Made by a program: the position numbers and the translations under genes
Shown: one piece after another, positions 19,501 through 43,013 of the stretch
How the letters are laid out: every line of letters begins with the position of its first letter
How positions within the stretch are numbered: position 1 is the first letter of the stretch
The notes under the pieces: model-generated
Databases searched by the model: none
What the model was told of the DNA's origin: nothing
Seen by the model: only the letters and a program-made list of their open reading frames with translations
IMG/VR virus record: IMGVR_UViG_3300021424_000074
Location: 1 to 45,804 of that record
Strand: one strand, 5' to 3'
Origin: a virus
DNA: 45,804 nucleotides

Positions 19501-22500
19501 TTTTACAACATATGGTGGAAGTTCAGTACCAAAAAAAATAATGAAAATAAACGCCGATGGTACTGAAAATACAACTTTCTCAGCGAACGGAGGTGCTGGG
19601 ATTGATTTAACCACAGCCACTTCTAAGGCTAATGATGTTATTGAACAACCGTGGGACGGAAAAATATTAGTTGTAGGTAAATTCAATAAATATAATAACA
19701 CAACAATAACCGGCGATAATATTATTAGACTAAATTCCAACGGTACGATTGATGGTACATTTAACCCGCCGAACGCAAGTACAAGTGAATATAGAAGAGT
19801 TGTAGTGGACAGTAACCCGTCTAGTCCATATTATGGTTATCTTTATGTTGGTGTAAGTTTTTTTAATAACGGCTATGTTAGAAGATTTTTACCCAATGGT
19901 TCTATTGATAATACTTTCCCAATTATTGGTGCAACATTTAATATTGATATTTTAAGTTTGAAAATAGATATTAATAATAAAATTTTAGTTGGGTTTAGTG
20001 GTTCATTTACATTAAATTCTGTAACATATAAAGGTATTATAAGATTAAATACTGACGGAACAGTAGACACAACCTTCAATCAAAATGGGGTTGGTTTCAA
20101 TAATACAGTAAGTGTTAATGCAATTGAAATAGACACTAATAATAATATAGTATTAGGTGGGTCTAGCAACTTCACATATAATGGTATAAGTAGAACCAAT
20201 GTTTTAAGATTATTACCTGACGGGACTTTAGACGGTACATTTGACTACGGACTTAATTTTTCAACATTTACAGGGAAGGTATATGATTTGAAAATTTTAA
20301 GTAATCAAACTATAATTATCGGTGGTTATTTCGGAAGTTCAGTAAGTGTTGCTCAAAAAAATATAAGGTTACTTAATTCTGTTGGTCAAAATCAAGCCGC
20401 ATTTGCTTGGACTAACCCGATACCCCCTCCGCTAACTGCTTGGAACAACGTAGCAAGAGGATACATTGCATATACCTCTGATATTTTCAGAAATTTTGAT
20501 TCACATGAAATCATATTTTTAACAAGAGGTACTGATACATACACACCGAAACAAACAATAGAATATGATTTATCAAGATTATTTAATGCACCAACAGGTA
20601 CTGTCAAAGTCAAAGGTGAGTATTATTTGAATATTCCTATACAAAATAACTCACCATTTGATAATACCGTCCAAACTTGGGCAATACCTGGAGTCACATC
20701 GAACGTTTGGAAAGATAGTCATTTTACACCCGAAAGTCATGATGTTATTAATAATAAAAATCCAGTATTATATCATAAAACTTACAATGATTTTTTGATA
20801 CCACAAAATTCATGGACTGCATTTACAAATAATGCGGTAAAATATTATACGTCAACTGACAAATCTAGACGTACACATAAAGCATATAATGGAGACCAAT
20901 GGGCTCTTGAAAATTTTACATCGGCACCTGGTGTCAATTCCAATGTTAATTATGTGTGGTCAGATGGTAGTAATACGTTAGGTATTTCTTGGACAATCGG
21001 AGATCCCGAAGATATTATTGACCCACTAAACCCTACTTATACTAATAATGTTGTGTATGGTCAAGGGTTTATAGAAGGAGTGTCTGTTATGGCATCAACT
21101 GTGAGTCCGGGAACAACCCAAGATATTGAAGATCCCACATTCTTTGCAAGAATATTTGCACCCTCATATCATTTAGAAAACCCACAAGATGTATTGATAG
21201 ACAACAGACAAAGGTTGGTACTTAGAAGTGATAGATTACCAACATCAACAACGACTGAAGTCACTGGTAATAATTCTTTACCTTTATTTTTAAATGAGGC
21301 GTTTTATATTACTAAGGTTTTTGAAAACGGTGAAACATTTGAACTTAGTATTAGTATTAATCAAACAATTGATAATTCAAATACTCAGGATATCTCAGGA
21401 GACACCCCAAGTGCTATTTCAGATGCAATTATAAATAGTTTATCTTGTGACGGGTTAACGAGTTTAAGTTGTTATAGTGGTTTTGGTGGTAATTTTGGTG
21501 TTATTGCACCATGTGCAGCAAATAATGACGGCAATTTACAAACACAAAGAATCATTGGAGGGTGTTATTATTTTGTACAACCTGAATATTTAAATCAAAG
21601 TTCAATAAATACAGACATACAATTTTTTAAAGAGTGGAGAGCTAGATTTACATTAACATTTGCTGCTTGTAGAGGAGTAATAAGTCACGTATTTCAAAAC
21701 AACTGGATAAATGGATCATTATATGCTTTTTCATTCAAAAAAAAGAACATATTTAATTCTCAAGGTGAACTACAAAACTATAATTATTGTGGGTCAAATA
21801 ATGGGTTGATAAATCCAGTAAGAGAAAATCAAGGACCTATTTTTTATGAAAAAAATAAAAACACTTTTATATATAGATGTACACCTTATGAATATCAAAC
21901 AGATAAATTTATAGGACAAAAACCAAGATATAAAGAATTTTTTGGGTTAGGTGATTGGGTTAATGCGGACTTCAAAGGAATGAATAAAAGAAATATTTAT
22001 TATCCAACGACAATCATGGATTTGGGCCCAAGAGATGAGTTCGCTAAAGAAATATGTTTCAACCCGCAACTTGATGGTTATTTAGTTGAAACAATACAAA
22101 GTTCATCATACAACGACACTAGCGATATATTGTTATTTTTTATTCTTTCAAGGCTCCTTTCAAGTACTTTAGGTAATTTTATAACAACAGGTAATAAACA
22201 ATTGAACGCTCTATTCAGTAGAGAAGAAGATAGGTTAGATGGTGACGTTGTTCAAATGTTTAGTATAAATTCTGAATATGGAATTGTACCATTTAATGAT
22301 GACAATTATAATGATGACGACTTATTTATGTTCGGTGCAGTTAATTCAGAAGGAGACTTAGGACCAACAATTGGGTTATATTTTTCATCTAACACTAGAA
22401 ATAGGATACTTTTAACTCCTGGTATTCAAACATATGGGACTGTTTTACAAAATAATGGATACCCTAAAACACAAAGAGTACCTATGTATAAATGGGAATA

Positions 22501-22831
22501 TGATACTACTTCTAATTTATTTGGAAGTGAATTAAATGAGTGGTATACAGATTTAGAGTCAGGAGGATTTTATTCAATTCCATACCAAAAGATGGGTTAC
22601 AATACTGCGGCATATTTTCAGCCACAAAACGGAACAGGACCATTTAACGGGGCCACTGGGTACATCTTTAATTACGACAGTAACGGTAATCCTAATCAAA
22701 ATGTTTTGGAATGGCCAAATAACCAATCAAATCGTTTTGTGGTTGGTGCACCGTACCATTTTTATTTTGGTTTAGGTAAAGGAAAAACCGCTATGAACAG
22801 ATACATAACTAAGTATATTATAGGAGGATAA
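16565..22831 (+). CDS. Giant baseplate-associated protein with beta-propeller
   Basis: At 2088 residues this is the largest product. It follows the gp6-like gene, where T4 has gp7, and is probably a baseplate wedge component, though I see no clear gp7 similarity. Residues about 50-175 resemble a carboxypeptidase-regulatory-like fold (VVAGRVIANGGYGVPNVSISIFVPL ... ESGDFMIVGVPLG, given here in pieces). Residues about 505-555 contain two long hydrophobic segments (FFLFSILILILHPIFIIIII). Residues 910-1282 form seven delta-60 repeats, probably a beta-propeller. The C-terminal 800 residues are beta-rich and unrecognised. The gene ends with IIGG and TAA overlapping the ATG of the next gene. A Shine-Dalgarno-like AGGAGG precedes that ATG. 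A role in host contact or in sheathing the wedge is inferred. Confidence 0.65.
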   Translation: MSKKYRFRTKLNQDREIRLHIEQDFDMIEILSLKLKQSDVYTRFCADYGVVAGRVIANGGYGVPNVSISIFVPLSAQDENNTVISTLYPYKNSGQKNEDGYRYNLLPYKSEYGGHTPTGTFPDIEDVLKRKEVLEIYEKYYKYTVRTNESGDFMIVGVPLGMQTIVMDMDLSNIGCFSLRPSDLVRMGMGVESQFAGSQFRASENIESLPQIINSRKDIEVASFWGETDICDVGITRVDFDLRSLGINIEPQAVFMGSMFSTTEEDALGTNCKPKFDSGNLCDLVSAPGKILAIRQTIYTDTQGLPILEEYKLSDGGNVIDEEGTWLIEVPMNLDYVSTNEFGEQVLSNDPTVGIPTKGKYRFKIQYQNENSATAQVIRADYIVPNIKEYGWRNLPGSDENGPNNSSLQEKSYAFSLDWQDYAQIDPITSGFTTLGQQMIQEAINCEDRFFEFNFNRVYTVSSFLDRWKWGYNRSRHLGIKEITNRDCSTTTNRMPVNDGVRNFDLIFFLFSILILILHPIFIIIIILYHFIIWAYALLVDIVNGFVDFVNRIIIGFCRMINRIRSWIGWSQKDCEDDTIPRIPDRTFPRISLPMISYPDCDACNCETVQNPSQGSQPTNDLTLQRVNTSLLADTNSIESWSWAETSEYNKIQTYYCDVFPEGCDVTEDAFNFAISQGFAGFSGPTTNGKDRLQKIPIATWPSQDSRVGALGFNVSWGQKLNLMNARARYHGNESVMTITVKNKDFQNVEQVSGLMKDQPFILICDTGTISQLGGAGTLLSFTDIDQINDPNLTGGTLNQFGNNAVTGTTVHNNINLSNKTQYFIEPSYTSVVSSAVLKLKLTGSSQSYNFKGGVEYFQVITGGTLASFEQYLTGERWESFLGQYVYGGDMKFRWGKGWGREKIFGKAPDNVVISISLDTAGNIIIGGNFVKYGTTTTNKIAKIDDNGNYLSFNPTTGLNGIVYKLITNSSDETFVVGNFTTYGGSSVPKKIMKINADGTENTTFSANGGAGIDLTTATSKANDVIEQPWDGKILVVGKFNKYNNTTITGDNIIRLNSNGTIDGTFNPPNASTSEYRRVVVDSNPSSPYYGYLYVGVSFFNNGYVRRFLPNGSIDNTFPIIGATFNIDILSLKIDINNKILVGFSGSFTLNSVTYKGIIRLNTDGTVDTTFNQNGVGFNNTVSVNAIEIDTNNNIVLGGSSNFTYNGISRTNVLRLLPDGTLDGTFDYGLNFSTFTGKVYDLKILSNQTIIIGGYFGSSVSVAQKNIRLLNSVGQNQAAFAWTNPIPPPLTAWNNVARGYIAYTSDIFRNFDSHEIIFLTRGTDTYTPKQTIEYDLSRLFNAPTGTVKVKGEYYLNIPIQNNSPFDNTVQTWAIPGVTSNVWKDSHFTPESHDVINNKNPVLYHKTYNDFLIPQNSWTAFTNNAVKYYTSTDKSRRTHKAYNGDQWALENFTSAPGVNSNVNYVWSDGSNTLGISWTIGDPEDIIDPLNPTYTNNVVYGQGFIEGVSVMASTVSPGTTQDIEDPTFFARIFAPSYHLENPQDVLIDNRQRLVLRSDRLPTSTTTEVTGNNSLPLFLNEAFYITKVFENGETFELSISINQTIDNSNTQDISGDTPSAISDAIINSLSCDGLTSLSCYSGFGGNFGVIAPCAANNDGNLQTQRIIGGCYYFVQPEYLNQSSINTDIQFFKEWRARFTLTFAACRGVISHVFQNNWINGSLYAFSFKKKNIFNSQGELQNYNYCGSNNGLINPVRENQGPIFYEKNKNTFIYRCTPYEYQTDKFIGQKPRYKEFFGLGDWVNADFKGMNKRNIYYPTTIMDLGPRDEFAKEICFNPQLDGYLVETIQSSSYNDTSDILLFFILSRLLSSTLGNFITTGNKQLNALFSREEDRLDGDVVQMFSINSEYGIVPFNDDNYNDDDLFMFGAVNSEGDLGPTIGLYFSSNTRNRILLTPGIQTYGTVLQNNGYPKTQRVPMYKWEYDTTSNLFGSELNEWYTDLESGGFYSIPYQKMGYNTAAYFQPQNGTGPFNGATGYIFNYDSNGNPNQNVLEWPNNQSNRFVVGAPYHFYFGLGKGKTAMNRYITKYIIGG
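19292..20410 (+). repeat. Seven delta-60 repeats (coding), putative beta-propeller
   Basis: Seven units of about 53 residues repeat the pattern of a buried strand, IIIGGNF-like strand, aromatic-Gly turn, IxRLNxDG and TFN. Examples are IIRLNSNGTIDGTFN, IIRLNTDGTVDTTFN and LRLLPDGTLDGTF. This is the delta-60 repeat family known from secreted bacterial proteins. Seven units would close a seven-bladed propeller. At DNA level the units have diverged, so the expansion is old. Confidence 0.8.
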
Positions 22832-26542: not shown

Positions 26543-27451
26543 ATGGCACTAGGTTCATATGGTATAGTAAGACCCGCAGACGTTTCACCACAAGACGTTG
26601 AAATAATTTTGAATTACACTCCATCAAGAGACGTAACTAATGAATTCGTATTAAAAAAATTAGATACTGCAAGTATTTTTACACCTTATTTTCATAATTC
26701 AGATACTGGCGGAAATGCTAATGTTGAGATACTTGGAGGCCTTTACAATTTAAAATTACCCGCAAATGAATTTAACAAAATAGGTGTTTACACTCTATAT
26801 ATCAGACCTGCAGAAATAAGGATGAGAATTGAGGATTGTGGAGTTTTATCTGCATTACCAACAGTAAAGGGTATTGTTTTAAACTTAAATAATGTCCCAC
26901 AAGAATTTAGAAATAAATTTACAAATCAAGGTTTAGTTGGGTATAGAGTAGAATATTTAAATTCAGACGGAACAAAAATACCTAATTTTTATAGAATTAT
27001 AACATCTTCATTTTTTTGTGAACCAGTAATAACAGACCAAGTTAACACATCACAAAAAGTTATTAGATATAAATACTTAGAAAATGTTAGTGATTTACTT
27101 TTTTGTACATTATCACCATCATCGTCACCAACAAATAAACCAAACGCAACTCCATTTATAGGTCAACCAAACCAAAGGATAATAATAACAAATACATTTT
27201 TCAATCCAATAACGTTGGATATACAAATGTCAGAACATGATATAGATACTTTAGCGATAGCTCTTTATGGTAATCAAACTAAGAGTATGGATGACGGTAT
27301 ATATACTTTATATGATAGTGCAAACAACATTTACAAACAATATAACCTATTTGAGGTTAGAGATAATTTTAACGAGTTACTATACGAAGTAAGACAAGAT
27401 AGAGGAACAAATATAGACTTTAGTAAAAACTTTACAAATATTATTAGTTAA
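26543..27451 (+). CDS. Baseplate structural protein, 302 aa, unknown family
   Basis: The 302-residue protein begins MALGSYGIVRPADVSPQDVEI. It has a beta-rich body and a helical C-terminus (IDTLAIALYGNQTK, then LYEVRQDRGTNIDFSKNF). No known family is recognised with certainty. Position after the gp6-like region would correspond to gp8 in T4, but I see no sequence sign of gp8. A TAATG overlap couples it to the 995-residue gene. I infer a baseplate component. Confidence 0.6.
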   Translation: MALGSYGIVRPADVSPQDVEIILNYTPSRDVTNEFVLKKLDTASIFTPYFHNSDTGGNANVEILGGLYNLKLPANEFNKIGVYTLYIRPAEIRMRIEDCGVLSALPTVKGIVLNLNNVPQEFRNKFTNQGLVGYRVEYLNSDGTKIPNFYRIITSSFFCEPVITDQVNTSQKVIRYKYLENVSDLLFCTLSPSSSPTNKPNATPFIGQPNQRIIITNTFFNPITLDIQMSEHDIDTLAIALYGNQTKSMDDGIYTLYDSANNIYKQYNLFEVRDNFNELLYEVRQDRGTNIDFSKNFTNIIS

Positions 27452-30438
27452 TGGCAAAAACTAAATTTATATGTCCACCGCAAGCCGCAGTAGGTACGAG
27501 CACTTTTTCTGATGATTTAGTCGGGTTGCAGCTTGTTGCGGGTGGTGGTTTAACTTTAGGTAATTTTCAATTTACAACAGCAGTAAGTGGAAGAAATAAC
27601 AGAAGCTTTACGACAGGTGTTTTTTCTGAACCATTTAATTTAGAAAATATTAATATACCCACAATAGAACAGGCTAAATTAATAGTTCAAAAAAACTTTA
27701 GTGTATTTCCTAATTTTGACTTATCGCAAATTACTAGTTTTTCACTTTACGGTTCTTTGCAAAAAAGATTGGCCAGCTCAATAACTAAAATAATTAATTA
27801 CTTTCCTGCTGGTATACAAATTAATTCACAAAATTTAATTTTACAAACAGGAAATACGGCATTCAATATTACATATAACGAAATTGAAGATGAAACTACC
27901 TTTGATTCTGATATCACATTTTTTAATAATCCATTTGATATAGATTATTCAGAAAATGCTAATATTAATATTTCAAATAGACCAATAGCTGTATCTAAAT
28001 ATAGAAATATTACTGACAATTTTTCTGATTTTTCACTTTATGTTGGTAATTTAAATAATGAATATAATGTTGTCGATTTTGAACCATCACAAACTTTAAC
28101 AGGTGGCACAGTCACATTAACGGTTAAGGGTAAACCATTCACTTCAACAACAACCACAACAACAATTTTAGTAAAACCAAACAATTTAACAACAGAAAAA
28201 ATATTCAAGGACGATTTTGATGAGGTTGAGGATTTTTTATTAAATAGAAAAATAAATCCAGCATATACCACAGTGTTTAAATACCCAGATTATGATTCAG
28301 ATGGTAATTATGTAATGTTCACTAAAGAAATAACTTGGAAATTGGATGGTTTTTGGAATTTAGATATAAGAACAAGTAAGTTTGATGATTACTTACAAAT
28401 TATTAATGAAGTTGCTGAAAATTTAGATGAATATAAAACTAATTTAATTAGTAGATTTTTAATATCGGGTTCATTAAAAGAATTTGATACTGCAGATCAA
28501 AAAATAGAAAAGGTTCTACAACTATATGGTAGAAGTTTCGACGAAGTTAAAAAATTCATAGACTCATTAACATATATCACCTCTGTAAATTATATAGTTG
28601 GTAACGACATACCGTCACAATTATTAGTAAATTTGGCACAAACATTAGGGTTTAACAAAAACATGTCACCAATCACTAATGATAGTTTACTTGAAAGTAT
28701 TTTTTCAACTACTAATCAAATAATTTATCCTGGACAAACAAAACAACAAACACCAACAGAATTAAATTATCAATATTATAGAAATTTGATTTTGAATGCT
28801 GGTGAACTTTTTAGAACAAAAGGAACAAGAAAATCTATTGAATATATATTGAGAATGGTTGGTGCTCCTGAAGCACTTATTGAGTTTAATGAATACATTT
28901 ATATTGCAGATCAAAAAATATCAGTAGATGATTTTTATGAAAAATATGTAGAATTTTCAGGAGGAACTCAGTTCATATCACAACCATCATACTTAACAAC
29001 TAATCTTTTTAAAATACAAGGGGTACAATATACGGGATTTTCTACCACAGGAACTTTAAGACAAACAAATTTAGATTTGATATATTACCCAATAAATTTA
29101 AAAAACGGTTATCCCGAAACACCAGTTTATACCGATGATTATTTTTTCCAAAAAGGAGCCGGATGGTTTGAAGTTACACCCGATCATAGATCAACTGAGT
29201 TTATTGATACCAATCTTTCTAATTTTAATGTTACACCACCAATAATAAAAACATCTTTGAAACCATTTACCTACGGAGAGGAATACTTAGATAGGTTTAG
29301 AAAATTCCCATTTATGGATTTTGGATATAATTTAACAAAAACAATAGATAATAAAAAATCTTGGGTTTCTACAGAAAACGGAATTAGAAGTAACAATCAA
29401 GAATTGTCACAAACAAGATATTACATTGAAGACGAAAAATTAAGTCTGAACGTCAAAAATATGGAAGTCTATTTGAATATGGGACAAGGTATAACATACG
29501 ATATATGGGAAATGTCCGCAAGGTTCGGTTACCCGATACCAAATTCGGGATTGACTGCACCTTACCCTAGTCTTGGATTAAATGATTGGACAGTCATAAA
29601 CCCAAAACCAAACAAAAAAACTTTTGCAGAGTTCGCTCAAACCTTTTATAATAATTTAATTAATGTAAGAAATAGACAAACAATTTCTGATGGAAAAACA
29701 GGAGGTTATCCGACATTACAATCAATTTTTTGGAAATATTTGCAAACTGAAAACACAGTAAACATACCAACCAATAAATTCACACATCAAAAAATGATCG
29801 ATTTTACTTTAGGTATTGGTGATTATTGGGTTAGATTATTGGAACAATTTGTTCCTGCGACAACCATTTGGAATGCAGGACAAAAAATGGACAACTCAAT
29901 TTTTCACAGACAAAAATTTGTTTGGAGAAGACAAAGAAGTTGTGAGTTAATACCTTTGGCTTGTATACCATGTGAGTATATTGGACAACCATTTAATTAT
30001 GATTGTATAGATCAAACAACGCAGTGTACACTACCGGTTTTCGATCCCGCAACAGTGCTTAATACAAAAGTAAATGATATAATTTCTTCACAAGGTTACC
30101 TACCAAATCAATGTAATAGTAATACCACAATATCTACATGGGGAGTTATTGTTTCTTTGAAAGATATTATAACACAAAATGAAACTGAGTTAATTAATAG
30201 TGATTTTTTTGTTGGATACGGTCAAAACGCAACTGATCCAATAACAGGTTTACCTTTGAGTTATCCTAACATTTTAAATTATATAGATAATGAAATGGAG
30301 TATTTATATCAAAGCGGATTAAATTATTATTTCATTGGAGGGAACTTAATTATAAGTAACTCTTCATGTTATGATAATTTTACAAATAAACAACTAATTT
30401 TAAAAATTAGTTTGGACGTTCAAATTAATTGTGGGTAA
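27451..30438 (+). CDS. Large baseplate/tail protein
   Basis: The 995-residue protein contains near residue 449 a segment [19 protein letters not shown] followed by [15 protein letters not shown]. This pattern (helix, F-R-T-K-G-T-R, helix, hydrophobic turn, E-Y) occurs in tail proteins of the P2 gpI type and related baseplate proteins that link the baseplate to fibres. The rest is beta-rich with some helices around residues 320-370 ([20 protein letters not shown]). The C-terminus has cysteine-rich segments. It is coupled on both sides by TAATG overlaps, with the 302-residue gene before and the SprB-repeat fibre after. Linking the wedge to the fibres is inferred. Confidence 0.65.
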
Positions 30439-33191
30439 TGGCTTGTATTTCAGGGTATACTGATGAGATTTATTTTAGTTATTTTGATTGTTGCGGAAAC
30501 ATACAATCAGGTATTGGACCTTTATATCAATCTGTTTGTGCGGATCAGGCTCTTTCAGGTTCTTCGGTTGGTGTTTATTTAGACCCTTCACTTGTTTGTA
30601 CTGAGGATTGTGACACAGGACCATTAAGTTATAACTTTACAACAAGTGGTAATTGTGGTAATGTTTCTGCCGGAACAATAACTTTAAATGTTTATGGTGG
30701 ATTTGGTCCATATACTGTTGATAATATTGTACCAGGTTCTTTATCCTCACAAACGTTTAATTCACAAGCAACATACACCGGACTAACAGGAGGTACGTAT
30801 GTTTTTAGAATTAATGATAGTCAAGGAATACAAAATAATGAAATTTACTTCAATGCGATAATTTCAGAATGTTTTGAAGCAACAATAAGTGATGTCAATG
30901 GAACTAATTGTGGTTTAAGTGACGGGCAATTTACCGTAAACTCTACATCAAATAGTTCGCCATTTAAATTAATATTAAATAAAAATGGGTTATTTTCACA
31001 ATATATTGAAACGGGATCATTACCATATCAGTTTACTGGTTTAGATTATGGTATATATGATGTAACTGTTTATGACTTTGGGTTTACTACCGCAAAAACA
31101 GAAAATGTTGTTCTAAGTGCAAGCACAGAAATAGATTATGGTTTTTGGGTTGTAAATGCCGCGAACTGTGTGACAAATGGAGGTAAAGCCGCAGTCACAG
31201 GAACAACAGGTGTTGGTCCCTATAGTTATTTATGGTCTGATGGACAAACTACTCAATTGGCAACAGGATTGACTCAAGGAGTATACAGTGTACAAGTAAC
31301 TGATTTTTATGGATGTGTTACAGAAAAAGACGTTTTGATAGGTCAGGCACAACCTTTAGGTATTGGGTTATTAACAAGCGTTAATCCATCTTGTAATGGT
31401 TATGATGGGTCAATCACAATTAATTTAACAGGAGGAACCGCACCATTTTTCTATTCTGCAAATACAGGAACCGTTGGTTATACTTTATCAAATTCTTTTA
31501 CTTTAAATAACTTATCTAGTGGGTCTTACAATTTATTTATCAGAGACGCTAATTTCTGTCCATTAAATGCTTCTGTTTTTTTAACCGCACAAAACGGTAT
31601 ATATAATGTCGCAAATACTGTAACAAATTCAATTTGTAATCAAAATTCAGGTTCAATATACACAACATTTAATGGACCATACGCGAATAGTTTTCTTTTA
31701 GGATTAACAGGACAAACAACTAATGAGGTTAGAAATATAAGCACCGCAAATCAAAATTATACATTTCAAAATTTACCAAACGATACTTATACATTGGTAA
31801 TATCAGCACAAAATGGTACGTGTACTTATACTGATACAGTAACTGTAAATTCGCAAGAAAAATTTAATGTTAATATTTCAACAACAGGAGCCACTTGTGG
31901 TTCAGCTAGTGGTAATGTATTAGTAAATGTAGGTACGGGTTATACTAATTGGCAAACGGTAGGGTTATTAGATTATGTTTTAAGTAATGGTCAACAAGTT
32001 TATGATATTAGTTTAACATCGTTTACTTATAATAACTTGTCTGTTGGTCCATATACATTAACTGTGACAGATGAGGAAAACTGCTCAGTTACAAAAACGT
32101 TTAACATAACTCAAGGCGGGTATTTAAACAGTTCTTTATTATCAAATGATTGTCAATTTGGAAATGATGGTAATGCGACTGTTTTAATATTCGATGGAGA
32201 ACCAACATTCACATATGATTGGTCACCAAATATACCTGTAGGACAATCAGGATCCACTATTAGTGGGATGTCAGGAGGAACATATTATGTGACAGTTACG
32301 GATAGTAGTGGGTGCACAAATTACCACACTTTTTACATTGATTGTACAAGCACTTTGGTTACTGGTTCAACAACATATAATCTTTGTAGTTCTAACTTTG
32401 TGACAACATCTGGAACAAAAAGAGGTATTAGTGAAATGATTAGTGAAGGTTATTTAGATTTAACATCAGGGTATACCAACTGTATTTTAAATTCGGCGGA
32501 TCTAACATGTTCTATAACAATCAACAATAGTGCGTTTACTCAAACATTTATCGTTACAAACGACGCAACATGGCAACAAACTATAGAGTCTATTTTATCA
32601 ACAATTCCACAAGTCGGTTACTACTCAGTAGATTTATTAAATAACAAAATAACAATAAAGACTAATTGTGTAAATGGTTTGGTTGATCCCATAGGTAACG
32701 GTAATTTTATTTTAGAATTAGATATAGTTTTTGACATTTCTTGCCAAGACATTATACCTACACCAACACCTACACCAACACCAAGTCCTACACCAACACC
32801 AAGCCCAACACCAACACCAAGTCCTACACCAACACCAAGTCCTACACCAACACCAAGTCCTACACCGACTCCTACTCCTACACCTACATTTGCATCTATT
32901 CAATGGTTTGGATCTTACAATAGATACCCAAGTGCACTGTCGTTTGGTGCTTGCACAGAATCAAACTGTAGTGTAATTTACTATACAACAGGAAGTTCCA
33001 TTAATAACGGTGATGTTATCTATACCAATCCGGCATTAACAATAAACGCAGGCTCGACAGCACAAAATTATCCACCATCACAAGGAGGCTATGGGTTTAT
33101 GTATTTAGATACCACATGCCCACCAACAGGTACTAGAAATGTGTTTAGACTTAATAATTTAGGAGTAGTGTCAAGTAAATTTATTTGTTAA
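30438..33191 (+). CDS. Tail fibre/adhesin with SprB-like repeats and Pro-Thr linker
   Basis: I chose ATG 30438 (917 residues), whose ATG overlaps the stop of the previous gene; a TTG at 30429 would add three residues. Residues about 70-636 comprise seven repeats of the SprB type (C-x(4-6)-G, GG-x-x-PY, Y-x-W-SDG, G-x-Y-x-V-x-V-T-D-x-x-G-C), known from flavobacterial gliding adhesins. A unique domain follows at about 640-770, then a 44-codon Pro-Thr/Ser linker (774-817) and a C-terminal domain of about 100 residues with several cysteines that may bind the receptor. No signal peptide is present. The protein is probably a long adhesive fibre; the repeats form immunoglobulin-like modules. Confidence 0.75.
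30648..32345 (+). repeat. Seven SprB-like repeats (coding)
   Basis: Seven units of about 75-85 residues begin with a cysteine and small residues ([56 protein letters not shown]) and end in TDxxGC-like turns. The third and seventh are the closest to the flavobacterial pattern ([17 protein letters not shown]). Units differ strongly, so they are not a recent expansion. Confidence 0.75.
32757..32888 (+). repeat. Pro-Thr-Ser linker repeat (coding)
   Basis: Forty-four codons encode alternating Pro-Thr with a Ser in every third position (PTPTPS units). The DNA is a short tandem repeat of ccaacaccaagtcctaca. The same kind of linker occurs in the gene at 37334. It is likely an extended, possibly glycosylated stalk. 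Confidence 0.9.
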
Positions 33192-33498: not shown

Positions 33499-35208
33499 AT
33501 GATAATTAATATAACAGGAGATACTGGTGGTGTTGAACCATATGACGTTTTTTTATGTGAACAAACCAACTATAGTTGTTTTTATATATCGGGACTAACA
33601 TCAATCCCAGGAACAGTTGAAATAAATAGCCAATATTATTTTCCAAATGAATATTTGTTATATTTGAAAATTGTTGACACAATTGGTTGTGTCAAATTAT
33701 TCCCTTTAGATTGTGGTCAATCAAAATTTGAATCAACTTGGGATACAAAAAATCTTGGTGTTTCAGCGGCAAACCAAATACAACTTCCTTTGGAGTCTTC
33801 TGGAGCATATAACTTCTTTATTGAATGGGGTGATGGAAATTATGATACAATTACAGTTTGGAATGATCCTGCAACATTACATACATACACAACACCTGGA
33901 CTATACACAATAAAGATTTATGGACAAATAGAAGGTTTTAGATTTAATTATGTTGGTGATAGAGAAAAAATATTAAGTATTCAATCTTGGGGTTCTGATT
34001 TTAGATTGGGTAATAATGGTGGATATTTTTACGGTTGCACAAATTTAGATTTAAGTTCAGTTTCAGATATTTTAGATTTGACAGGAACTTTATCTTTGTC
34101 TTCTGCTTTTAGTGATTGTGCGTCTCTTACAACGGTCAACAATATGAATTTGTGGGATACATCTTCTGTTACAAATATGAGTTTAATGTTTTTGTATGCA
34201 ACATCATTTAATCAACCAATTGGAACTTGGGATACATCTTCCGTTACAGATATGCTTGGTATGTTTTTTAATGCAACATCATTCAATCAACCAATTGGAA
34301 CTTGGAATACATCTTCTGTTACAAATATGCGTCAAATGTTTGAAGATGCAACATCATTCAATCAACCAATTGGAACTTGGAATACATCTTCTGTTACAGA
34401 TATGAGTTTAATGTTTTTTAATGCAACATCATTTAATCAACCAATTGGAACTTGGAATACATCTTCCGTTACAGATATGCTTGGTATGTTTGCTAATGCA
34501 ACATCATTTAATCAACCAATTGGAACTTGGAATACATCTTCCGTTACAGATATGCTTGGTATGTTTTTTAATGCAACATCATACAATCAACCAATTGGAA
34601 CTTGGGATACATCTTCTGTTTCAAATATGGGTACTATGTTTAATGGTGCAACATCATTTAACCAACCAATTGGAACTTGGAATACATCTTCTGTTATAAA
34701 TATGGGTGCTATGTTTTTAAATGCAACATCATTTAATCAACCAATTGGAACTTGGAATACATCTTCTGTTACAAATATGATTGAAATGTTTCTAGACGCA
34801 ACATCATTTAATCAACCAATTGGAACTTGGAATACATCTTCTGTTACATTTATGGATAATATGTTTAATGGTGCAACATCATTTAACCAACCAATTGGAA
34901 CTTGGAATACATCTTCTGTTACAGATATGAATAATATGTTTCAAAATGCAACATCATTTGACCAAGATTTGGGTTCTTGGGATGTTACATCATTAACATC
35001 CGCAGCAAATATGTTTTTAGGTGTTACACTATCAACACCAAACTATAATTCACTACTTATTGGTTGGGCATCATATGGTGGTGCTTTACAATCTAACGTT
35101 CCTTTTCACGGAGGCGGTTCTATTTATACAATAGCAATAGCTGGTGCTTCGAGAAATTATTTAACAGGAACAAAATTATGGACAATCACCGACGGAGGTG
35201 GAATTTAA
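33499..35208 (+). CDS. BspA/DUF285-like repeat adhesin
   Basis: The 569-residue protein has three parts. Residues 1-75 are the small Cys module. Residues about 78-205 begin [20 protein letters not shown] and include [13 protein letters not shown], a PKD-like fold, ending in YFYGCTNL; this is the usual lead-in to BspA-like repeats. Residues 234-483 are ten units of 25 residues ([19 protein letters not shown] plus variable residues around MF), with degenerate units on both sides. Such DUF285 repeats occur in surface proteins of Bacteroidota and mollicutes and bind host or partner molecules. There is no signal peptide or anchor, as expected for a virion protein. It is a good candidate for the receptor-binding fibre. 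Confidence 0.8.
34198..34947 (+). repeat. Ten tandem 75-bp repeats (DUF285/BspA-like)
   Basis: Exactly ten 75-base units start with gcaacatcatt. The first 57 bases of each are nearly identical, including synonymous positions; the differences cluster in codons 18, 20-21 and 24-25, the last four around the fixed Met-Phe (for example LG/FN, RQ/ED, SL/FN, IE/LD, NN/QN). An eleventh, diverged unit follows ([11 protein letters not shown]). The DNA identity points to recent expansion or gene conversion. Confidence 0.9.
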
Positions 35209-35256: not shown

Positions 35257-36498
35257 ATGAATACAATATTTATTCAAATCGCGTCATATAGAGATCCGGA
35301 ACTTTTACCAACAATAAGATCTTGCTTAGAAAACGCCAAATACCCACAAAATTTGACATTCGGTATTGCAAGACAATTTCACCCAAATGATAAATTTGAT
35401 AATCTTACTGAATATGAAATCGATGATAGATTCACCATATTAAATATACCGCACCGAGAATCAAAAGGTGTTTGTTGGGCACGTAATCAAGTACAACAAT
35501 TATATAAAGGAGAAGAGTATACCCTACAAATTGATTCTCATATGAGGTTTGAAAAATATTGGGATGAAACTTTAATTGATATGATAAAACAATTACAAGA
35601 ATTAGGAATACCAAAACCTTTATTAACGGGGTATGTTTCATCATATAATCCAAATAATGATCCACATGGAAGAGTAAGAGTGCCTTGGAGAATGGCGTTT
35701 GATAAATTTATACCTGAAGGTGCTGTCTTTTTTTTACCTGAAGCAATCCCTGATTGGCAAAATATAGACCTACCAATACCATCAAGATTTTATTCTGCAC
35801 ATTTTTGTTTCACATTAGGACAATTTTCAAAAGAAGTACAACACAATCCTGATTTTTATTTCCATGGAGAAGAAATATCAATTACAGTTAGAGCGTTTAC
35901 GCAAGGATATGATTTATTTCATCCACATAGAGTTGTTTTATGGCATGAATACACAAGAAATGGTAGAGTTAAACAGTGGGATGATGATAAAGAATGGTGG
36001 AAGTTAAATGAAAACGCACATTTATTGAATAGAAAACTATTTGGTATGGATGGTGAAACACAAGAAGGACATTATGGAAAATATGGTTTAGGTAACGTAA
36101 GAACTTTAAGAGATTATGAAAAATATGCTGGACTATTATTTGAAAAAAGAGCAGTACAAGAGTACACATTAAATAAAAATTACCCACCAAACCCTGAGTA
36201 CGATACAGAAAAAGAATGGTTAGAAAGTTTTACAAGAAATTTTGATTATTGTATTAATTTAGATGTCGATGAACTTAAAGAACCTGACTATGATTTTTGG
36301 GCGGTAACTTTTCACAATCAAACAGGAAGTGAAATACATAGAAAAGATTGTACGGAAGATGAAATAAAAAATTATCTAAATAACGGTTTTGTAAATATAT
36401 GTAGAAATTTTTTAGTGACAGAAACACCAAAATCATGGTCTGTTTGGGTACATTCTAAAACAAAAGAATGGATAAAACAATATACGGGTAATGTATGA
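35257..36498 (+). CDS. GlcNAc-transferase-like glycosyltransferase
   Basis: The 413-residue protein fits the GlcNAc family (PF11397), which includes the Skp1 hydroxyproline GlcNAc-transferase of eukaryotes and many bacterial and viral relatives. Visible marks are FIQIASYRDPEL at residues 5-16, GVCWARNQVQ at 71-80, and QIDSHMRFEKYWD with the DxH metal/sugar-nucleotide motif at 93-95, then FYFHGEEISITVRAF and VVLWHEYTR, all in family order. The C-terminal 120 residues are not recognised. The protein is cytosolic, with no membrane segment. It sits between the BspA-like fibre and the Pro-Thr-linker fibre and overlaps the next glycosyltransferase gene by four bases (ATGA), so they act together. 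Substrate: a fibre protein or host glycan, inferred. Confidence 0.78.
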   Translation: MNTIFIQIASYRDPELLPTIRSCLENAKYPQNLTFGIARQFHPNDKFDNLTEYEIDDRFTILNIPHRESKGVCWARNQVQQLYKGEEYTLQIDSHMRFEKYWDETLIDMIKQLQELGIPKPLLTGYVSSYNPNNDPHGRVRVPWRMAFDKFIPEGAVFFLPEAIPDWQNIDLPIPSRFYSAHFCFTLGQFSKEVQHNPDFYFHGEEISITVRAFTQGYDLFHPHRVVLWHEYTRNGRVKQWDDDKEWWKLNENAHLLNRKLFGMDGETQEGHYGKYGLGNVRTLRDYEKYAGLLFEKRAVQEYTLNKNYPPNPEYDTEKEWLESFTRNFDYCINLDVDELKEPDYDFWAVTFHNQTGSEIHRKDCTEDEIKNYLNNGFVNICRNFLVTETPKSWSVWVHSKTKEWIKQYTGNV

Positions 36499-37277
36499 TA
36501 AAAAGGTCAGTGATTGTAACCGCTTTATTTGATATCGGAAGAGATAAATGGAATAATTATAATCAATCATATAATACTTATTTATTTTGGATGGATAATA
36601 TTTTGAATGTCGATTCTGATTTTATTATTTATACTGAACAAAAGTTTTTAGATAGGATAATAGAAAGTAGAAAAAAAATAGATAAAGATTTATCTAGAAC
36701 TAAAATAATTATACAAAATTTTGAAGATCTTAATTCTTATAAAAAATTCCATCGAAAAATAGTAAACTTAATGTCATCAGAAGAGTTTAAAAAAAAAATA
36801 CACTTCCAAGTTCCAGAAATGTTGTATGCAGAATATAATACTATAATATTTAACAAGTTTTATTTTATTAAAAATGCAATAGAAGAAAGTGATTATGATT
36901 TTTATGTTTGGTGTGATGCTGGATTATTGAGAGACAATAGTAAACAAGGTAAAATTTTTCCAAAAATTGAAAAATTAGAAGAAGATTATTTAAATAAAAT
37001 AACGTTTTTCAGTCACGATACAAATTTTAAAATAACAAACAGAGAATTACATTTACTATCACAATATAGGTATATACACGGAGGTTGTTTTTTCGTTCCA
37101 AAAAAATCGAACATTAATTTTTTAATAAATTATTTTGAAACCTTATTACAAAAATATTTTGATTTTGGATACGTTGGTAGCGAAGAAAAGTATTTTGATT
37201 TTTGTTATGAAGACAATAAAGATGAATTTAACATAGTTAAATCAGATTGGAGGCAATATTTTGAACTATTCGGATAA
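36495..37277 (+). CDS. HtrL/YibB (WlaTC)-like glycosyltransferase
   Basis: The 260-residue protein resembles the HtrL/YibB family, which contains the WlaTC-type glycosyltransferases. Matching features are VTALFDIGRDKWNNY at the N-terminus, WMDNIL, DFIIYTEQKF, IIIQNFEDL, FNKFYFIKNA, YDFYVWCDAGLLRD (the acidic residue for metal or sugar nucleotide), and YIHGGCFFVPK near the C-terminus. The length is near the family norm. It overlaps the preceding glycosyltransferase gene by four bases and is followed after 56 bp by the fibre with Pro-Thr linkers. I infer that the two enzymes add successive sugars to the same acceptor; the sugar and acceptor are unknown. Confidence 0.75.
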   Translation: MIKRSVIVTALFDIGRDKWNNYNQSYNTYLFWMDNILNVDSDFIIYTEQKFLDRIIESRKKIDKDLSRTKIIIQNFEDLNSYKKFHRKIVNLMSSEEFKKKIHFQVPEMLYAEYNTIIFNKFYFIKNAIEESDYDFYVWCDAGLLRDNSKQGKIFPKIEKLEEDYLNKITFFSHDTNFKITNRELHLLSQYRYIHGGCFFVPKKSNINFLINYFETLLQKYFDFGYVGSEEKYFDFCYEDNKDEFNIVKSDWRQYFELFG

Positions 37278-37304
37278 AATACACTTCAATAAAATGAACT
37301 TGTG

Positions 37305-37319
37305 ATTATTTATATAATA
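37305..37319 (+). promoter_or_regulatory. Late-promoter-like motif
   Basis: ATTATTTATATAATA lies 14 bases before the ATG of the Pro-Thr-linker fibre gene, in the 56-bp gap after the glycosyltransferases. Confidence 0.4.
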
Positions 37320-37333
37320 AAGTCTAATTTTTA

Positions 37334-38962
37334 ATGGCAAATTTAAGATTCGAGGGTTGTTGTTATGAAGGTTATCAATATGTAACTGATGATGCTACTT
37401 GGAACGCAACTGGAGCAACAACCGCATTAACCACAACATATCATTTTTCGGGTGATGCGGTTGTTCCTGATGGTTGTTATACTATTGTATCCGCATTTAC
37501 TTCTGGTTTTAGTGCAACTACTTTCACAACATATAACGGAGTATATACAATACAGTCCGATTGCTCAACAATTTTATGTGATACAGGTCATTGTTGTAGT
37601 AATGAAATATGTGTTAATATTTCTTTTGACAGTTATTCTGGCTTCAATGGTAACTATATTGTTTCAGGTAACTTTAATAGTTATCCTTTTTGGACAGGCG
37701 GTACAAGTGGATCAACTATCTATTTCAATAACACTAATTGGTGCCTTTCAACAGGACTGACATCTACTTGTGTTTTTTTTGGCAATAATCCTACTTTCGA
37801 TTTATGCCCCGATTTTGATATTACCGTCGCAACAAGTGGCACTTGTGTACCAACACCAACACCATACGACCCATGTTCAATATTAGATTTTGATGTTCTA
37901 ACTCTCTGTGATATACCAACACCAACACCTACAGCGTCACCAACACCCACGCCTACCCCAACACCCACCCCAACACCTACAATTGGTCCTTGTGCAACAT
38001 ACACCGTTGGCATATCTTTTAGCGGGTATACCCCACCACCTACACCAACTCCAACACCATCACCTACTCCTACGCCAATAATATATCCATATAATATAAA
38101 TTCTGGAGTTACTTATGTTATTGATAGTGGAAATTTTGTCTGTGTTAATAGTAAAATACTTGAAGATTGTAATAGCAATGACATTTATAGTGTATTAGGT
38201 CCTTTGTTATTCTCTGGTAATACAATAATCACTGGAACAACATTCTTTGCATTCATTAATGGAGAATACAAATGTTTGAAATACATTGAAGACGATAATG
38301 GTAGTCCAATTGATTATTTAAGTGACATATTTTCAACAGCAAGTACTTGTTCAACCTGTGTTCTTGTTACACCAACACCTACACCAACGCCTACACCGAG
38401 CCCAACACCGACACCTACACCTAGTCCAACACCTGCACCTACATACCCTATTAATACTAACTTTGTTTTCACATCATGCACAAATAATACAATGATAATA
38501 CAATACAGTATACCTCCTTATAACATATCTAACGGTTCTATCTTAAAAGATTTGTCAGGTAATTGTTATTCATATGTTGGGTATTTCACTAACTATACAC
38601 CACCTTCGGGATATATGTGGTCAGTGATTGAAACTTTTACAGGAACAAGCGCAACAACATACACGAATTGCTTGACTTGTCTTACACCAACACCAACACC
38701 TGGACCTTCATATAAGGTTTGGTCAGGAAAGGGTGAATTTACAGTATCTTGTCCTACTTGTGATTTAGTAAATGGTGGTAGTGATATAACTTTCTACACG
38801 TCTTCAGGCGTGACATCAATAAATGAAAATGTTTATGTTTATGAAGATAGTTCTTTAACTATACCTTTGTTTACATCATATATAAAATATTCGAATAAAA
38901 TTTACTCAGTCAACCAACAAGGAAAACTTACAGAATTTTGTTCAGTAAATGGAAATTGTTAA
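37334..38962 (+). CDS. Cys-rich tail fibre with several Pro-Thr linkers
   Basis: The 542-residue protein alternates small Cys-rich, Gly/Thr/Tyr-rich modules with Pro-Thr linkers. Modules are at about residues 1-185, 217-232, 250-345, 372-450 and 460-542; linkers at about 195-216, 234-248, 346-370 and a short one at about 451-458. The first module begins [17 protein letters not shown]. Near residue 350 the C-T-C motif (STCSTCVLV) precedes a linker. No known fold is recognised, and no signal peptide is present. A fibre built of disulphide or metal-stabilised beads on a stiff linker is inferred. It is the first gene after the two glycosyltransferases and the most likely glycoprotein substrate besides the gene at 30438. 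Confidence 0.65.
37916..37981 (+). repeat. Pro-Thr linker repeat 1 (coding)
   Basis: Twenty-two codons of alternating Pro-Thr with one Ala-Ser break are encoded by an imperfect ccaacaccc-type tandem repeat. It is similar in DNA to the linkers at 32757 and 38369. Confidence 0.85.
38033..38077 (+). repeat. Pro-Thr linker repeat 2 (coding)
   Basis: Fifteen codons encode Pro-Pro-Pro-Thr followed by Pro-Thr/Ser alternation. It separates a 17-residue beta-like insert ([16 protein letters not shown]) from the next module. Confidence 0.8.
38369..38443 (+). repeat. Pro-Thr linker repeat 3 (coding)
   Basis: Twenty-five codons of Pro-Thr/Ser/Ala alternation, the longest linker in this gene, are encoded by a tandem repeat like that at 32757. 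Confidence 0.85.
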
Positions 38963-39187: not shown

Positions 39188-40810
39188 ATGTCAATTTATA
39201 GTGGTAACAGTTGTAATATAATAACATTATTTCCAATGAGCGTTCAATGTTCGGTTGTAAATGCTTATTCACCTGAAACAAATGATGGAGGGGTTTATTT
39301 AATTATTACTGGGGGAACTCCACCGTATAGTATTTCTTGGACAAACGGATCGCAAAGTCAAAACTTAATCGGTGTTGGTGCGGGTGAATACACCGCAACA
39401 GTAACCGATTATTATAACGATTTTAGTGCTACAACAACTTGTATAGTGGGAACCAATAGTTTTTATTTAGAAGAGTTTTTCAGTTGTGTGGAACCCACAA
39501 ATAAATTATATTATTTAGCCAATTTAAATTTTTTATACCCAACAGGCGATACGTTTACAATTACATCACAATCGGGATGTTGGGTAAGTAATGGTTTAAC
39601 ACTATATTCAGGTCAAAGTTATTACAATTATAGTGCAACCACAACATCAGGACCATTTGAAGACTGTACTGAATGTTTACCTATTACTCCTGAGTTTGAA
39701 AATACTTCAGGTTTATGTTTGAATACCGTTGGTTTTACTATTGTCGGATTTCAAGTAACTTCACAATTAACCCAATATCAATTCTTTTCTGCGGGAACAT
39801 ATAACGGATACCCAAGTTGGACATCATCAACACCTAGTCAAAAAATTTATTTCAATTCTGCAACTAATAATTGGAACGTATCTGGATGGACATTAACCGG
39901 CGTTCCGGTACTTGGACAACAAATTTCACCACCAATAGGCATATGGACGGTAAACGGAGGTAATAGAACTGTAAACGTAACACAAGGTAATTGTGGGACA
40001 AACATAATAGCAAACATACAAAAAACAAACCCAACTTGTAATTTATCAACAGATGGTACAATAATAGTAAATAACGTTGCTGGAGGAACTTCACCATACA
40101 CATATTCACTCAATAATATAACGTATCAAAACTCTAATATTTTTAATAACCTATCAACAGGTAATTACACAATTTATGTTAAAGACGTTATTGGGAATAT
40201 CTCAACATTTGGTGCGGTCTTAACACCTCAACAATCAACAACAACATACCAAGTAGATTTAAGTTTTGTTCCAAGTAGTCCAACATCAATAAGTACGACA
40301 AATAGTGTTCAAAAAACCGCTAATTGGGTTATTAGTGTTACTCCACCGTTACCGACTAACAGAGTGGTTAATATGACTATTTATAACACTACATCTATGT
40401 CTGCGGGGACCGCAAGTAACGGATCACCAACTTTAACATATTCTAACGTTACTGGAACTACTGGAACTGCACAATTTTTAACTTCTAACATACAAACAAC
40501 AACAAATAGTTATCCAAATATAGTTGCTTGTCACCCTAATTTTTATACCACAGGTATAACAAGAACATACACCGTTAGTATTTCAGGTACAGGGACTGTT
40601 ACAGGTACAATTTTTCAAAAAGTACAAGTGGTAAATTCGGGGCAAGGTTGTGTTACAAAAGGAACAATTGGTGATACTATTTCTATCGGAAATATCGTGT
40701 TATTAAATCAACAAACTTGCGAAACTATAAGTAACAATGTGACACCGATAACAGTTTCGGTAAATAAAGAAGGTAGTTTAGCATTTTCACAAAATAATCA
40801 AACAGGATAA
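39188..40810 (+). CDS. Tail fibre with SprB-like repeats
   Basis: The 540-residue protein contains at least two SprB-like units. The first, residues about 18-80, has GGVYLIITGGTPPYSISWTNG and then GAGEYTATVTDYYND. The second, about 280-345, has NPTCNLSTDGTIIVNN, GGTSPYTYSLNN and STGNYTIYVKDVIGN. Between them is a beta-rich part with the segment NGYPSWTSSTPSQKIYFNSATNNW, which also resembles a module in the gene at 37334 ([22 protein letters not shown]); the two fibres thus share a domain. The C-terminal part is Thr/Ser/Val-rich and unrecognised. No signal peptide is present. It begins four bases after the small Cys module gene. Confidence 0.7.
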   Translation: MSIYSGNSCNIITLFPMSVQCSVVNAYSPETNDGGVYLIITGGTPPYSISWTNGSQSQNLIGVGAGEYTATVTDYYNDFSATTTCIVGTNSFYLEEFFSCVEPTNKLYYLANLNFLYPTGDTFTITSQSGCWVSNGLTLYSGQSYYNYSATTTSGPFEDCTECLPITPEFENTSGLCLNTVGFTIVGFQVTSQLTQYQFFSAGTYNGYPSWTSSTPSQKIYFNSATNNWNVSGWTLTGVPVLGQQISPPIGIWTVNGGNRTVNVTQGNCGTNIIANIQKTNPTCNLSTDGTIIVNNVAGGTSPYTYSLNNITYQNSNIFNNLSTGNYTIYVKDVIGNISTFGAVLTPQQSTTTYQVDLSFVPSSPTSISTTNSVQKTANWVISVTPPLPTNRVVNMTIYNTTSMSAGTASNGSPTLTYSNVTGTTGTAQFLTSNIQTTTNSYPNIVACHPNFYTTGITRTYTVSISGTGTVTGTIFQKVQVVNSGQGCVTKGTIGDTISIGNIVLLNQQTCETISNNVTPITVSVNKEGSLAFSQNNQTG

Positions 40811-40823: not shown

Positions 40824-43013
40824 ATGTCATATATAATTAAAGATACTAGCGGAATATTAAATACATTATTAACTGATGCTGCGAGAAAAAAAATCTCACA
40901 AGGTAAATTTAACATCGCATATTTTCAAGTGGGCGACAGCGAAGTTAGTTATAATACAATAAGTGGTCAAAATTACAATAACTTAAATGTATTAATGCCA
41001 CAATATAATGCGGATAATAATACCCCAATACCTGAATTTAATAGGTTGAACGTTAAATACCCATTCTTTGTTGATTCAACTTCAGGTAGTACTTTTGGTA
41101 TTCCTTTCGATTCGTCGTATGTTGATAATATTTATAATTCTGCAGCACCAAGAGGTTTTTTCACAGGAAACACATTATACACAACATCGGCGTATACTAT
41201 TAACCCCAATTTTATTATAAATAATAGTGATTTAATGTCTGGCGATACTATTATAGTTTCTGCAAATACAATTGATGCATCGGCATCAGGAACAGTAACT
41301 ACAGGTATGTTTGTAACTTTATTTACAAATAACAGCATTAATCCATTAAGTGGTAATTCACCTTCATTTACGTATGTTGTTATTGGTGTCACGGGAAATA
41401 CGTCATCCGCGAGTACGGTGACGATTCAATTAGACAGACAAGTACCTGATTTTTTATCTATGGGATACACTGGCACATCATCAATTGTTTTTTATCCGGC
41501 AAACATGACACAACTTTATGATTCAGTTACTCCTGAACCATTTTGGGCAACTAATGTTTTTAATTTTGAAACAAATTGTGATGTTTCACAAACAGATGTC
41601 AAAGTTTGGAATATGAATATTCCTTGGACTGAATCACCAGCAGGATTATTTGATACAATTAATCAAGATTATAATAATTATTCAGCAGCAACTTATGTCG
41701 GAACTAAGGAATATTTAGGATATGGAACTAATAATGGACAATTAGATACTGGTTCTGTGTATTTTAACAACTCTTTAAGTGAAAAGATCAATTTTAGTCC
41801 ATCTGATCAAAAGGCAATCGCAATAGTTCATTATACTAATCAATCAATTGATAATTTTTATGGTGAAAAATTCGCACAACAAGAATATGATCCATCAAAT
41901 CCAGGCAATACGGGACAAGCAAGAAACTTTAAAATAGGTTTACCTTGGTTGATGTACCATAAAAATACGACAGGAACAATCGGTGAATATTTTTACACAG
42001 ACCCAACCGGATTTACACCGGATTTGTTTCAAACATTTTATATAAAATCAAAAAGAAGTGCGGATTTTAATAAACCAGGAATCAGATACTACAATTTATG
42101 GGACACATACGTAACCCCAACAGGTTACCCAAATAGGGTAGGTAAAGTTTTTCCTGATTTAAAAATGGTGGTTTTTGATGATGATGAAATAGTTGCAGCA
42201 ATGAGTAATAAATCTAATAGATCTTGGACATTGCCGGCACCAAAAGTAGGTCAAATAATACCAAACGCGTGTGATGGTGTTTTAGGTCAAGATGAAGGTG
42301 CGGTTAGTGCAGGAACAGAATCAATATTTGTTACTTATAGGTTTAATAATTCGGCATTTACAAATTCATTACACTGTAATTACTATACTAAATTAACACC
42401 AACACAAGTAGATCCAACACAATCAACATATAATATTTTCTTGAAATTTGGAAACGAATTCAAATTTTTAAATTCAGAAAACACAACAATACCATCAGGA
42501 TATACCGCAAATGAAATGAAAGTATTGGCTCAGATTGTATCAACCGGAACAACTAGACCACAACCCGATGAATGGAGAGAAATTGATGTTATGTCCCAAT
42601 TATCTGCAAGTACAACAAACGGGTTTTTAACGGTTAGTGGACTTACAGGAACAACAATACAGATTACAAAAGATATGTATGACAATGCTCCAACATATGA
42701 CCTTTATGACTACATCAACATACCGACACTTAATCAAACGGGGACGACTTTCAATTTTGGAGGAGAATACTATTTTTATGGTACTTTACAAACAGACATT
42801 CAGGCAACAATTTATGTTATGAATTATCTTTGTAATTTAGGACAAACACAGTTTTTAACTTCTTCTAACCCTACTTGGGACGGAACAACAAAACCATTTA
42901 TAACCGAAGTTGCTCTTTACAATGAAGATAGAGAACTTATGGTTATTTCTAAGGTACAATCCCCACAAAAAAGACAAGGAATCCAACAGTACCCCGTTAA
43001 ATTAGATTTTTAA
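40824..43013 (+). CDS. Virion structural protein, probably fibre attachment
   Basis: The 729-residue protein begins MSYIIKDTSGILNTLLTDAARKKISQG, followed by FNIAYFQVGDSEVSYN. A start of the form T-D-x-x-R-x-x-I-x-x-G, F-x-I-x-y-F-x-x-G-D is typical for proteins that connect fibres or baseplate appendages to the tail in large myophages. The rest is beta-rich, with YYNLWDTYVTPTGYP and KVFPDLKMVVFDDDEIVAAMSN in the middle and LYNEDRELMVISKVQSP near the end. It is the last structural gene of the cluster; the resolvase gene begins six bases after its stop. The structural call is solid; the precise role is inferred. Confidence 0.6.
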   Translation: MSYIIKDTSGILNTLLTDAARKKISQGKFNIAYFQVGDSEVSYNTISGQNYNNLNVLMPQYNADNNTPIPEFNRLNVKYPFFVDSTSGSTFGIPFDSSYVDNIYNSAAPRGFFTGNTLYTTSAYTINPNFIINNSDLMSGDTIIVSANTIDASASGTVTTGMFVTLFTNNSINPLSGNSPSFTYVVIGVTGNTSSASTVTIQLDRQVPDFLSMGYTGTSSIVFYPANMTQLYDSVTPEPFWATNVFNFETNCDVSQTDVKVWNMNIPWTESPAGLFDTINQDYNNYSAATYVGTKEYLGYGTNNGQLDTGSVYFNNSLSEKINFSPSDQKAIAIVHYTNQSIDNFYGEKFAQQEYDPSNPGNTGQARNFKIGLPWLMYHKNTTGTIGEYFYTDPTGFTPDLFQTFYIKSKRSADFNKPGIRYYNLWDTYVTPTGYPNRVGKVFPDLKMVVFDDDEIVAAMSNKSNRSWTLPAPKVGQIIPNACDGVLGQDEGAVSAGTESIFVTYRFNNSAFTNSLHCNYYTKLTPTQVDPTQSTYNIFLKFGNEFKFLNSENTTIPSGYTANEMKVLAQIVSTGTTRPQPDEWREIDVMSQLSASTTNGFLTVSGLTGTTIQITKDMYDNAPTYDLYDYINIPTLNQTGTTFNFGGEYYFYGTLQTDIQATIYVMNYLCNLGQTQFLTSSNPTWDGTTKPFITEVALYNEDRELMVISKVQSPQKRQGIQQYPVKLDF

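Follow-up and report, generated by a model that had tools for sequence, protein, structure and literature searches.

Glycosylation of virions by enzymes that the phage itself encodes is already known. In mycobacteriophages, phage enzymes glycosylate their own structural proteins (Freeman et al. 2023, via PMC12619734 and PMC11600133), with capsid and tail-tube C-termini as targets and no Pro-Thr stalks described in those sources. The window analysed here, a 45.8-kb IMG/VR fragment, holds two overlapping glycosyltransferase (GT) genes, of the GT60 type and of the HtrL_YibB family, next to a fibre-like protein with Pro-Thr/Ser (PT) linkers (Table 1). This pair is probably the start and the end of a phage fibre-glycosylation cassette, for which we infer the acceptor, the sugar, the order of action and the benefit. 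No mycobacteriophage homologue of either window GT was found by tblastn against 50,697 phage records.

The Xanthomonas jumbo phage XacN1 encodes a GT60 homologue with 44% identity to the window enzyme (ORF334), placed in one cassette near the baseplate with the HtrL-domain protein ORF330; the Stenotrophomonas phages RAS14 and CM1 are related, and RAS14 likewise has GT60 and an HtrL-domain protein within one cassette. Unlike the window, the XacN1 cassette contains an annotated carbamoyltransferase and two further open reading frames (ORFs), and belongs to a different phage lineage and host. Near it lies ORF325, a 3313-aa ORF with Pro-Ser/Thr segments. The virion proteome of XacN1 includes at least two glycoproteins, and its authors suggest that phage-encoded GTs, naming ORF334, are their makers (PMC5852040). 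The moraphages (large aquatic Bacteroidota phages) are also comparable, being large, T4-related, freshwater and Bacteroidota-linked, with several core GT orthogroups, to which their study gives no target (PMC12619734). An earlier sequence-only reading of this locus had held that no such system was described, which goes too far considering the XacN1 suggestion (PMC5852040) and the published glycosylation of mycobacteriophage capsids and tail tubes (cited in PMC12619734 and PMC11600133). The GT60/GalNAc-T-like initiator, the swappable cassette and the Pro-Ser/Thr stalk link common to type VI secretion system (T6SS) spikes appear to be new, as no description of them was found in the literature searched.

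The GT60-type ORF matches PF11397, 'Glycosyltransferase (GlcNAc)', with 222.4 bits against a cut-off of 21 (E-value 1.6e-65), covering profile positions 94-351 plus an N-terminal stretch, and PHROG 24687, 'glycosyltransferase' (E-value 9e-155). It has a GT-A domain at about aa 1-300 and a beta-rich C-terminal module at about aa 318-413, and its D93-S94-H95, the DxH metal/UDP motif, is invariant in 47 sequences. Because PDB sequence searches with GT60 or HtrL, single or as an alignment, gave nothing useful, a fold search was used. The 32 best PDB matches of the AlphaFold model of GT60 (pLDDT 92.8) are all polypeptide N-acetylgalactosamine (GalNAc)-transferases, from animals and Toxoplasma, the best being 6h0b_B (E-value 3.5e-11, TM 0.53 by query length). 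Polypeptide GalNAc-transferases are the initiators of mucin-type O-glycans. These GT27 enzymes thus resemble the window GT60 in fold, where they are closest, in the DxH motif and in Pro/Thr-rich acceptors, which are putative in the phage; they differ in being eukaryotic secretory proteins with a ricin-type lectin domain, at about 12% identity. By Pfam, GT60 gave neither a ricin-type lectin domain nor a GT27 sequence-family match, its C-terminal module being different and beta-rich.

The founder of GT60, the Skp1 hydroxyproline N-acetylglucosamine (GlcNAc)-transferase, shares its Pfam family with the window enzyme and is cytoplasmic. However, it depends on hydroxyproline supplied by a prolyl hydroxylase, an enzyme missing from most GT60 phage records. 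The 2-oxoglutarate (2OG)-Fe(II) oxygenase family PF13640 occurs in just 3/16 GT60-bearing records, so a hydroxyproline acceptor and the route known for Skp1 are unlikely; it is absent from the complete jumbo genomes XacN1 and RAS14, and a Pfam scan of window ORFs found no PF13640-type prolyl hydroxylase.

The HtrL ORF shares four bases with GT60, ATGA at 36495-36498 (...GTATGATAAAAAG), and matches PF09612 HtrL_YibB with 76.3 bits against a cut-off of 24.1 (E-value 3.8e-21). With 80.4 on the NCBIfam YibB equivalog, whose cut-off is 264.9, it is by sequence a member of the HtrL_YibB family and not YibB itself. Its model (pLDDT 93.9) matches XXYLT1, LARGE1, LgtC, glycogenin and GlyE in fold, resembling retaining GT-A enzymes which extend glycans. 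In addition, the C-terminal module of GT60 reappears at the C-terminus of the HtrL proteins of three loci, L026-L028 (hhalign 99%), suggesting that both enzymes may act on a common partner. The ATGA overlap and the Skp1-family and HtrL-like identities that the sequence-only reading had proposed are thus borne out.

The fibre identity of the window genes would follow from their position after gp25 and gp6 and from their SprB and DUF285 repeats. Their Pro-Thr runs are genuine and greatly exceed what chance would give: the 542-aa ORF has 68 PT-run residues, while shuffling yielded at most 14. Two genes bear such runs, the immediate downstream neighbour of GT60 and one three ORFs upstream, so that the Pro-Thr fibres thought to flank the pair are found there and not in the immediately upstream DUF285 gene. 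The repeats of this DUF285 (BspA-like) protein are near-identical and of the type used by bacterial adhesins.

The linkage extends to other phages. A search for the Pro-Thr fibre gave 41 distinct loci, in 34 of which GT60 starts the gene run immediately upstream, with only cassette genes separating it from the fibre; a 324-aa protein without family assignment takes the upstream position in 3/41. With p302 as a less biased anchor (n = 48 records), GT60 is present in 20/22 records with a full PT fibre versus 5/26 without it (Fisher p = 5e-7). Moreover, GT60 occurs in 11/79 random PT-repeat contigs versus 1/79 collagen-repeat control contigs (p = 0.005), and Pro-Thr/Ser-rich ORFs are present in 18/21 distinct GT60 phage loci, two of the three negatives being cut at the GT60 gene. 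Since the PTfib profile detects PT repeats as such, its matches among random loci were not counted as orthologues. The co-occurrence that had been proposed as a check on the early idea is found in both the fibre-based and the p302-based sets. A quick version of the GT60 tree requires a minimum of three separate groups of phage GT60 in addition to the jumbo isolates; in two of the groups (the window type and a 398-400-aa type beside Verrucomicrobia), GT60 precedes a fibre gene of one shared family. Neither p302 nor the PT fibre had a match in sequenced phages; consequently, isolates could be reached only via the GTs.

In the IMG/VR relatives, GT60 opens a variable series of genes that usually closes with HtrL, which in some cases carries a second, fused domain. 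Between them lie DUF3431, methyltransferases, GT25, GT34 and a PLOD-type GT domain; UDP-galactopyranose mutase and GT-like proteins without assignment are further members, and a carbamoyltransferase is found in related cassettes. Meanwhile, the order is kept: GT60, variable sugar genes, HtrL, then the Pro-Thr fibre. By this gene order, the window pair is a minimal version of a cassette that is larger and variable elsewhere.

A separate linkage comes from bacteria, where a genome scan located GT60 relatives within T6SS clusters of Burkholderiales and of one member of the Neisseriaceae. In one of them (L438), TssF, TssG and TssA adjoin GT60 and an HtrL-profile match, while VgrG and RHS lie near GT60 in Paraburkholderia and Trinickia. 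Each of the 13 GT60-linked VgrGs shares a contig with GT60, at a distance of up to about 7 kb in twelve cases and about 20 kb in one, and ends in a tandem-repeat tail whose unit, though variable (PT, PPTEP, PETEEP, AASDEEP, PPSEEP, PEPSDEQ, STPEP, PDET, TGP), always contains Pro and Ser/Thr. Such turnover of the repeat with Pro and Ser/Thr kept is predicted by an acceptor function. In contrast, these tails were seen in 0/20 unlinked VgrGs of GT60-bearing genomes (2/22 if two further tailed VgrGs on other contigs, which were set aside, are included) and in 0/29 VgrGs of congeneric genomes where GT60 was not found, giving p = 2e-9 and p = 4e-11, respectively, by statistics that ignore shared ancestry. 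The proximity of PT runs to GT60 in bacterial loci (eight genes within 4 kb, none beyond) is weak evidence by itself, and this VgrG control was used in its place.

Several of the bacterial loci have features of their own. In L438, L444 and L447, GT60 lies inside type VI clusters with a Pro-Ser/Thr-tailed VgrG, and a MrkD-like fimbrial adhesin gene adjoins GT60 in L447. In two Bacteroidota genomes (L423 and L429), GT60 and HtrL adjoin a Pro-Ser/Thr-rich protein whose N-terminus looks export-signal-like by eye, L429 having a carbamoyltransferase as well. The locus L432, binned as Planctomycetaceae, looks phage-derived, with two Pro-Thr-rich fibre-like ORFs flanking GT60 and a two-domain GT.

As GT60 and HtrL adjoin Pro-Thr stalks in numerous phages that are unrelated to each other and, in a different form, in bacterial type VI weapons, they most likely decorate these stalks with sugars. 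Gene identity, fold, cassette order and the linkages to Pro-Thr fibres and, separately, to VgrG are directly seen. As proposed, a cytoplasmic GT60 would put the first sugar, most likely an N-acetylhexosamine judging from the enzyme family, onto Ser/Thr of the adjacent fibre proteins, within their Pro-Thr linkers, ahead of virion assembly. HtrL, plus other GTs and sugar-modifying enzymes in related phages, would extend or cap it, and the decorated stalks would then be assembled into the virion, where they may offer an extended, protease-resistant and variable glycan surface. Thus, the idea that the phage O-glycosylates its own fibres, the core of the sequence-only reading, is the best supported one, given the co-occurrence, the resemblance of GT60 to GalNAc-transferases in fold and the comparison with type VI systems, even if the reading as a whole is supported in part, its suggested purposes (stiffness, protease resistance, receptor mimicry) being conjectural. 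We give roughly even credence to a broader proposal, in which a mobile cytoplasmic stalk O-glycosylation module, made of a GT60 initiator and replaceable extenders, would serve the Pro-Ser/Thr stalks of contractile machines generally, both phage fibres and the VgrG spikes of Burkholderiales and kin, with the glycan diversified by cassette swapping while initiator and acceptor are retained.

Some observations weigh against fibre glycosylation. TarS and GlfT2, which both act on polymers, rank after the GalNAc-transferases among the GT60 fold matches, so that a protein acceptor is unproven by fold alone. In 4/41 PT-fibre loci (L140-L143), GT60 is absent and a minus-strand gene stands at its spot, and the 41-locus set is itself biased towards GT60 because its seed alignment came from GT60 loci. 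The linkage counts as a whole are phylogenetically non-independent, and the searches were seeded from GT60-bearing loci. Furthermore, the main text of the XacN1 report does not assign its glycoproteins to particular ORFs.

It is unlikely, in view of the following, that the GTs merely travel as mobile cargo of a fibre locus that is hypervariable, with Pro-Thr repeats as plain linkers and an association due to hitchhiking or common ancestry. This explanation would fit the relatedness of the loci to each other, the rapid turnover of some cassette genes and the absence of GT60 from most PT-repeat phage loci: 85/99 random loci with PT-repeat ORFs had neither GT60 nor another profiled GT in the examined stretch, showing that PT linkers do not require GT60. 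However, it does not account for GT60 being kept as the first cassette gene from apparently at least three origins in phages, for the invariance of its catalytic motif, or for the tails of the T6SS-linked VgrGs, which persist in 13/13 through many unit changes and appear in 0/49 controls.

Alteration of host surface glycans (lipopolysaccharide, capsule) during infection, blocking superinfection or changing the receptor, is also improbable. HtrL_YibB is present in a lipooligosaccharide outer-core locus (PMC4172580), which speaks for this role and against the fibre as target, and the UDP-galactopyranose mutase, GT25 and carbamoyltransferase of related cassettes would suit polysaccharide synthesis too. 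The fibre neighbourhood would then reflect receptor-binding and receptor-modifying genes travelling together, like the serotype-conversion genes of temperate phages, a scenario to which we likewise assign a low probability. Nevertheless, the scanned cassette genes included no recognisable flippase or polyprenyl-phosphate transferase, GT60 has its nearest fold neighbours among enzymes that work on polypeptides, and the strong link to Pro-Thr stalks and T6SS VgrG tails is not predicted. Glycosylation of phage DNA bases, as by the T-even glucosyltransferases, is known in T4-like phages and is a usual phage-GT role according to PMC12619734, but it is very improbable here, as no base-hypermodification gene is present beside the cassette, the enzyme families and fold neighbours differ, the location is the tail/fibre cluster and the GT60 family is also found in bacterial T6SS loci.

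Regarding PT-fibre loci without GT60, the minus-strand gene at its position in L140 (9329-9919) is GT29 (sialyltransferase-type) by Pfam, with same-length genes in L141-L143. Upstream of other such fibres stands a family of 324-336 aa ('VTAQPDVPYFHWQ'; L180 8426-9400, L182 8323-9300, L118 16768-17778). A likeness of the 324-aa protein (L180-L182) to plant Hyp/Ser glycosyltransferases was noticed by eye but, having no meaningful Pfam/NCBIfam match, was not used as evidence.

The T4-type genes of the window comprise a gp32-like single-stranded DNA-binding protein, a UvsX-like recombinase, a DnaB-like helicase, gp25 and the gp6 baseplate wedge. Elsewhere, a ribonucleotide reductase ORF (9133-12090, 985 aa) contains an intein with a LAGLIDADG endonuclease domain, and downstream of gp6 lies a 2088-aa protein with DUF5122 beta-propeller repeats (16565-22831), its size and domain being unusual for the baseplate region.

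Table 1. Genes of the tail and fibre region in the window, with their proposed roles.
Feature	Length (aa)	Position	Strand	Remark
gp25 baseplate gene		14190		
gp6 baseplate gene		14656		
p302, conserved tail-region protein	302	26543..27451	+	Anchor of co-occurrence test
SprB-repeat fibre/adhesin-like protein	920	30429..33191	+	44-residue PT/PS linker, aa 777-820; second candidate acceptor
DUF285 (BspA-like) tandem-repeat protein	569	33499..35208	+	Directly upstream of GT60; context only
GT60-type glycosyltransferase (PF11397)	413	35257..36498	+	Proposed glycan initiator on fibre Ser/Thr
HtrL_YibB-family glycosyltransferase (PF09612)	260	36495..37277	+	GT-A fold close to GT8/24-type; proposed extension enzyme
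Cys-rich fibre-like protein	542	37334..38962	+	Pro-Thr/Ser linkers, aa 195-216, 233-248, 345-370; proposed main acceptor
SprB-repeat fibre-like protein	540	39188..40810	+	Context
p729, conserved tail-region protein	729	40824..43013	+	Synteny marker

If fibre glycosylation by this cassette is true, phages and some T6SS spikes would possess a mucin-like cytoplasmic O-glycosylation of proteins, with a simple acceptor code, Pro-Ser/Thr repeats beside the gene, and a swappable glycan. Thanks to the VgrG contrast, the acceptor hypothesis could be tested directly in environmental Paraburkholderia that can be cultured, and the enzymes would provide a compact, bacterial-compatible tool to decorate Pro-Thr linkers. 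Moreover, it would account for the many glycosyltransferases of large aquatic phages and change the sequence-based interpretation of host adsorption, protease resistance and the recognition of fibres.

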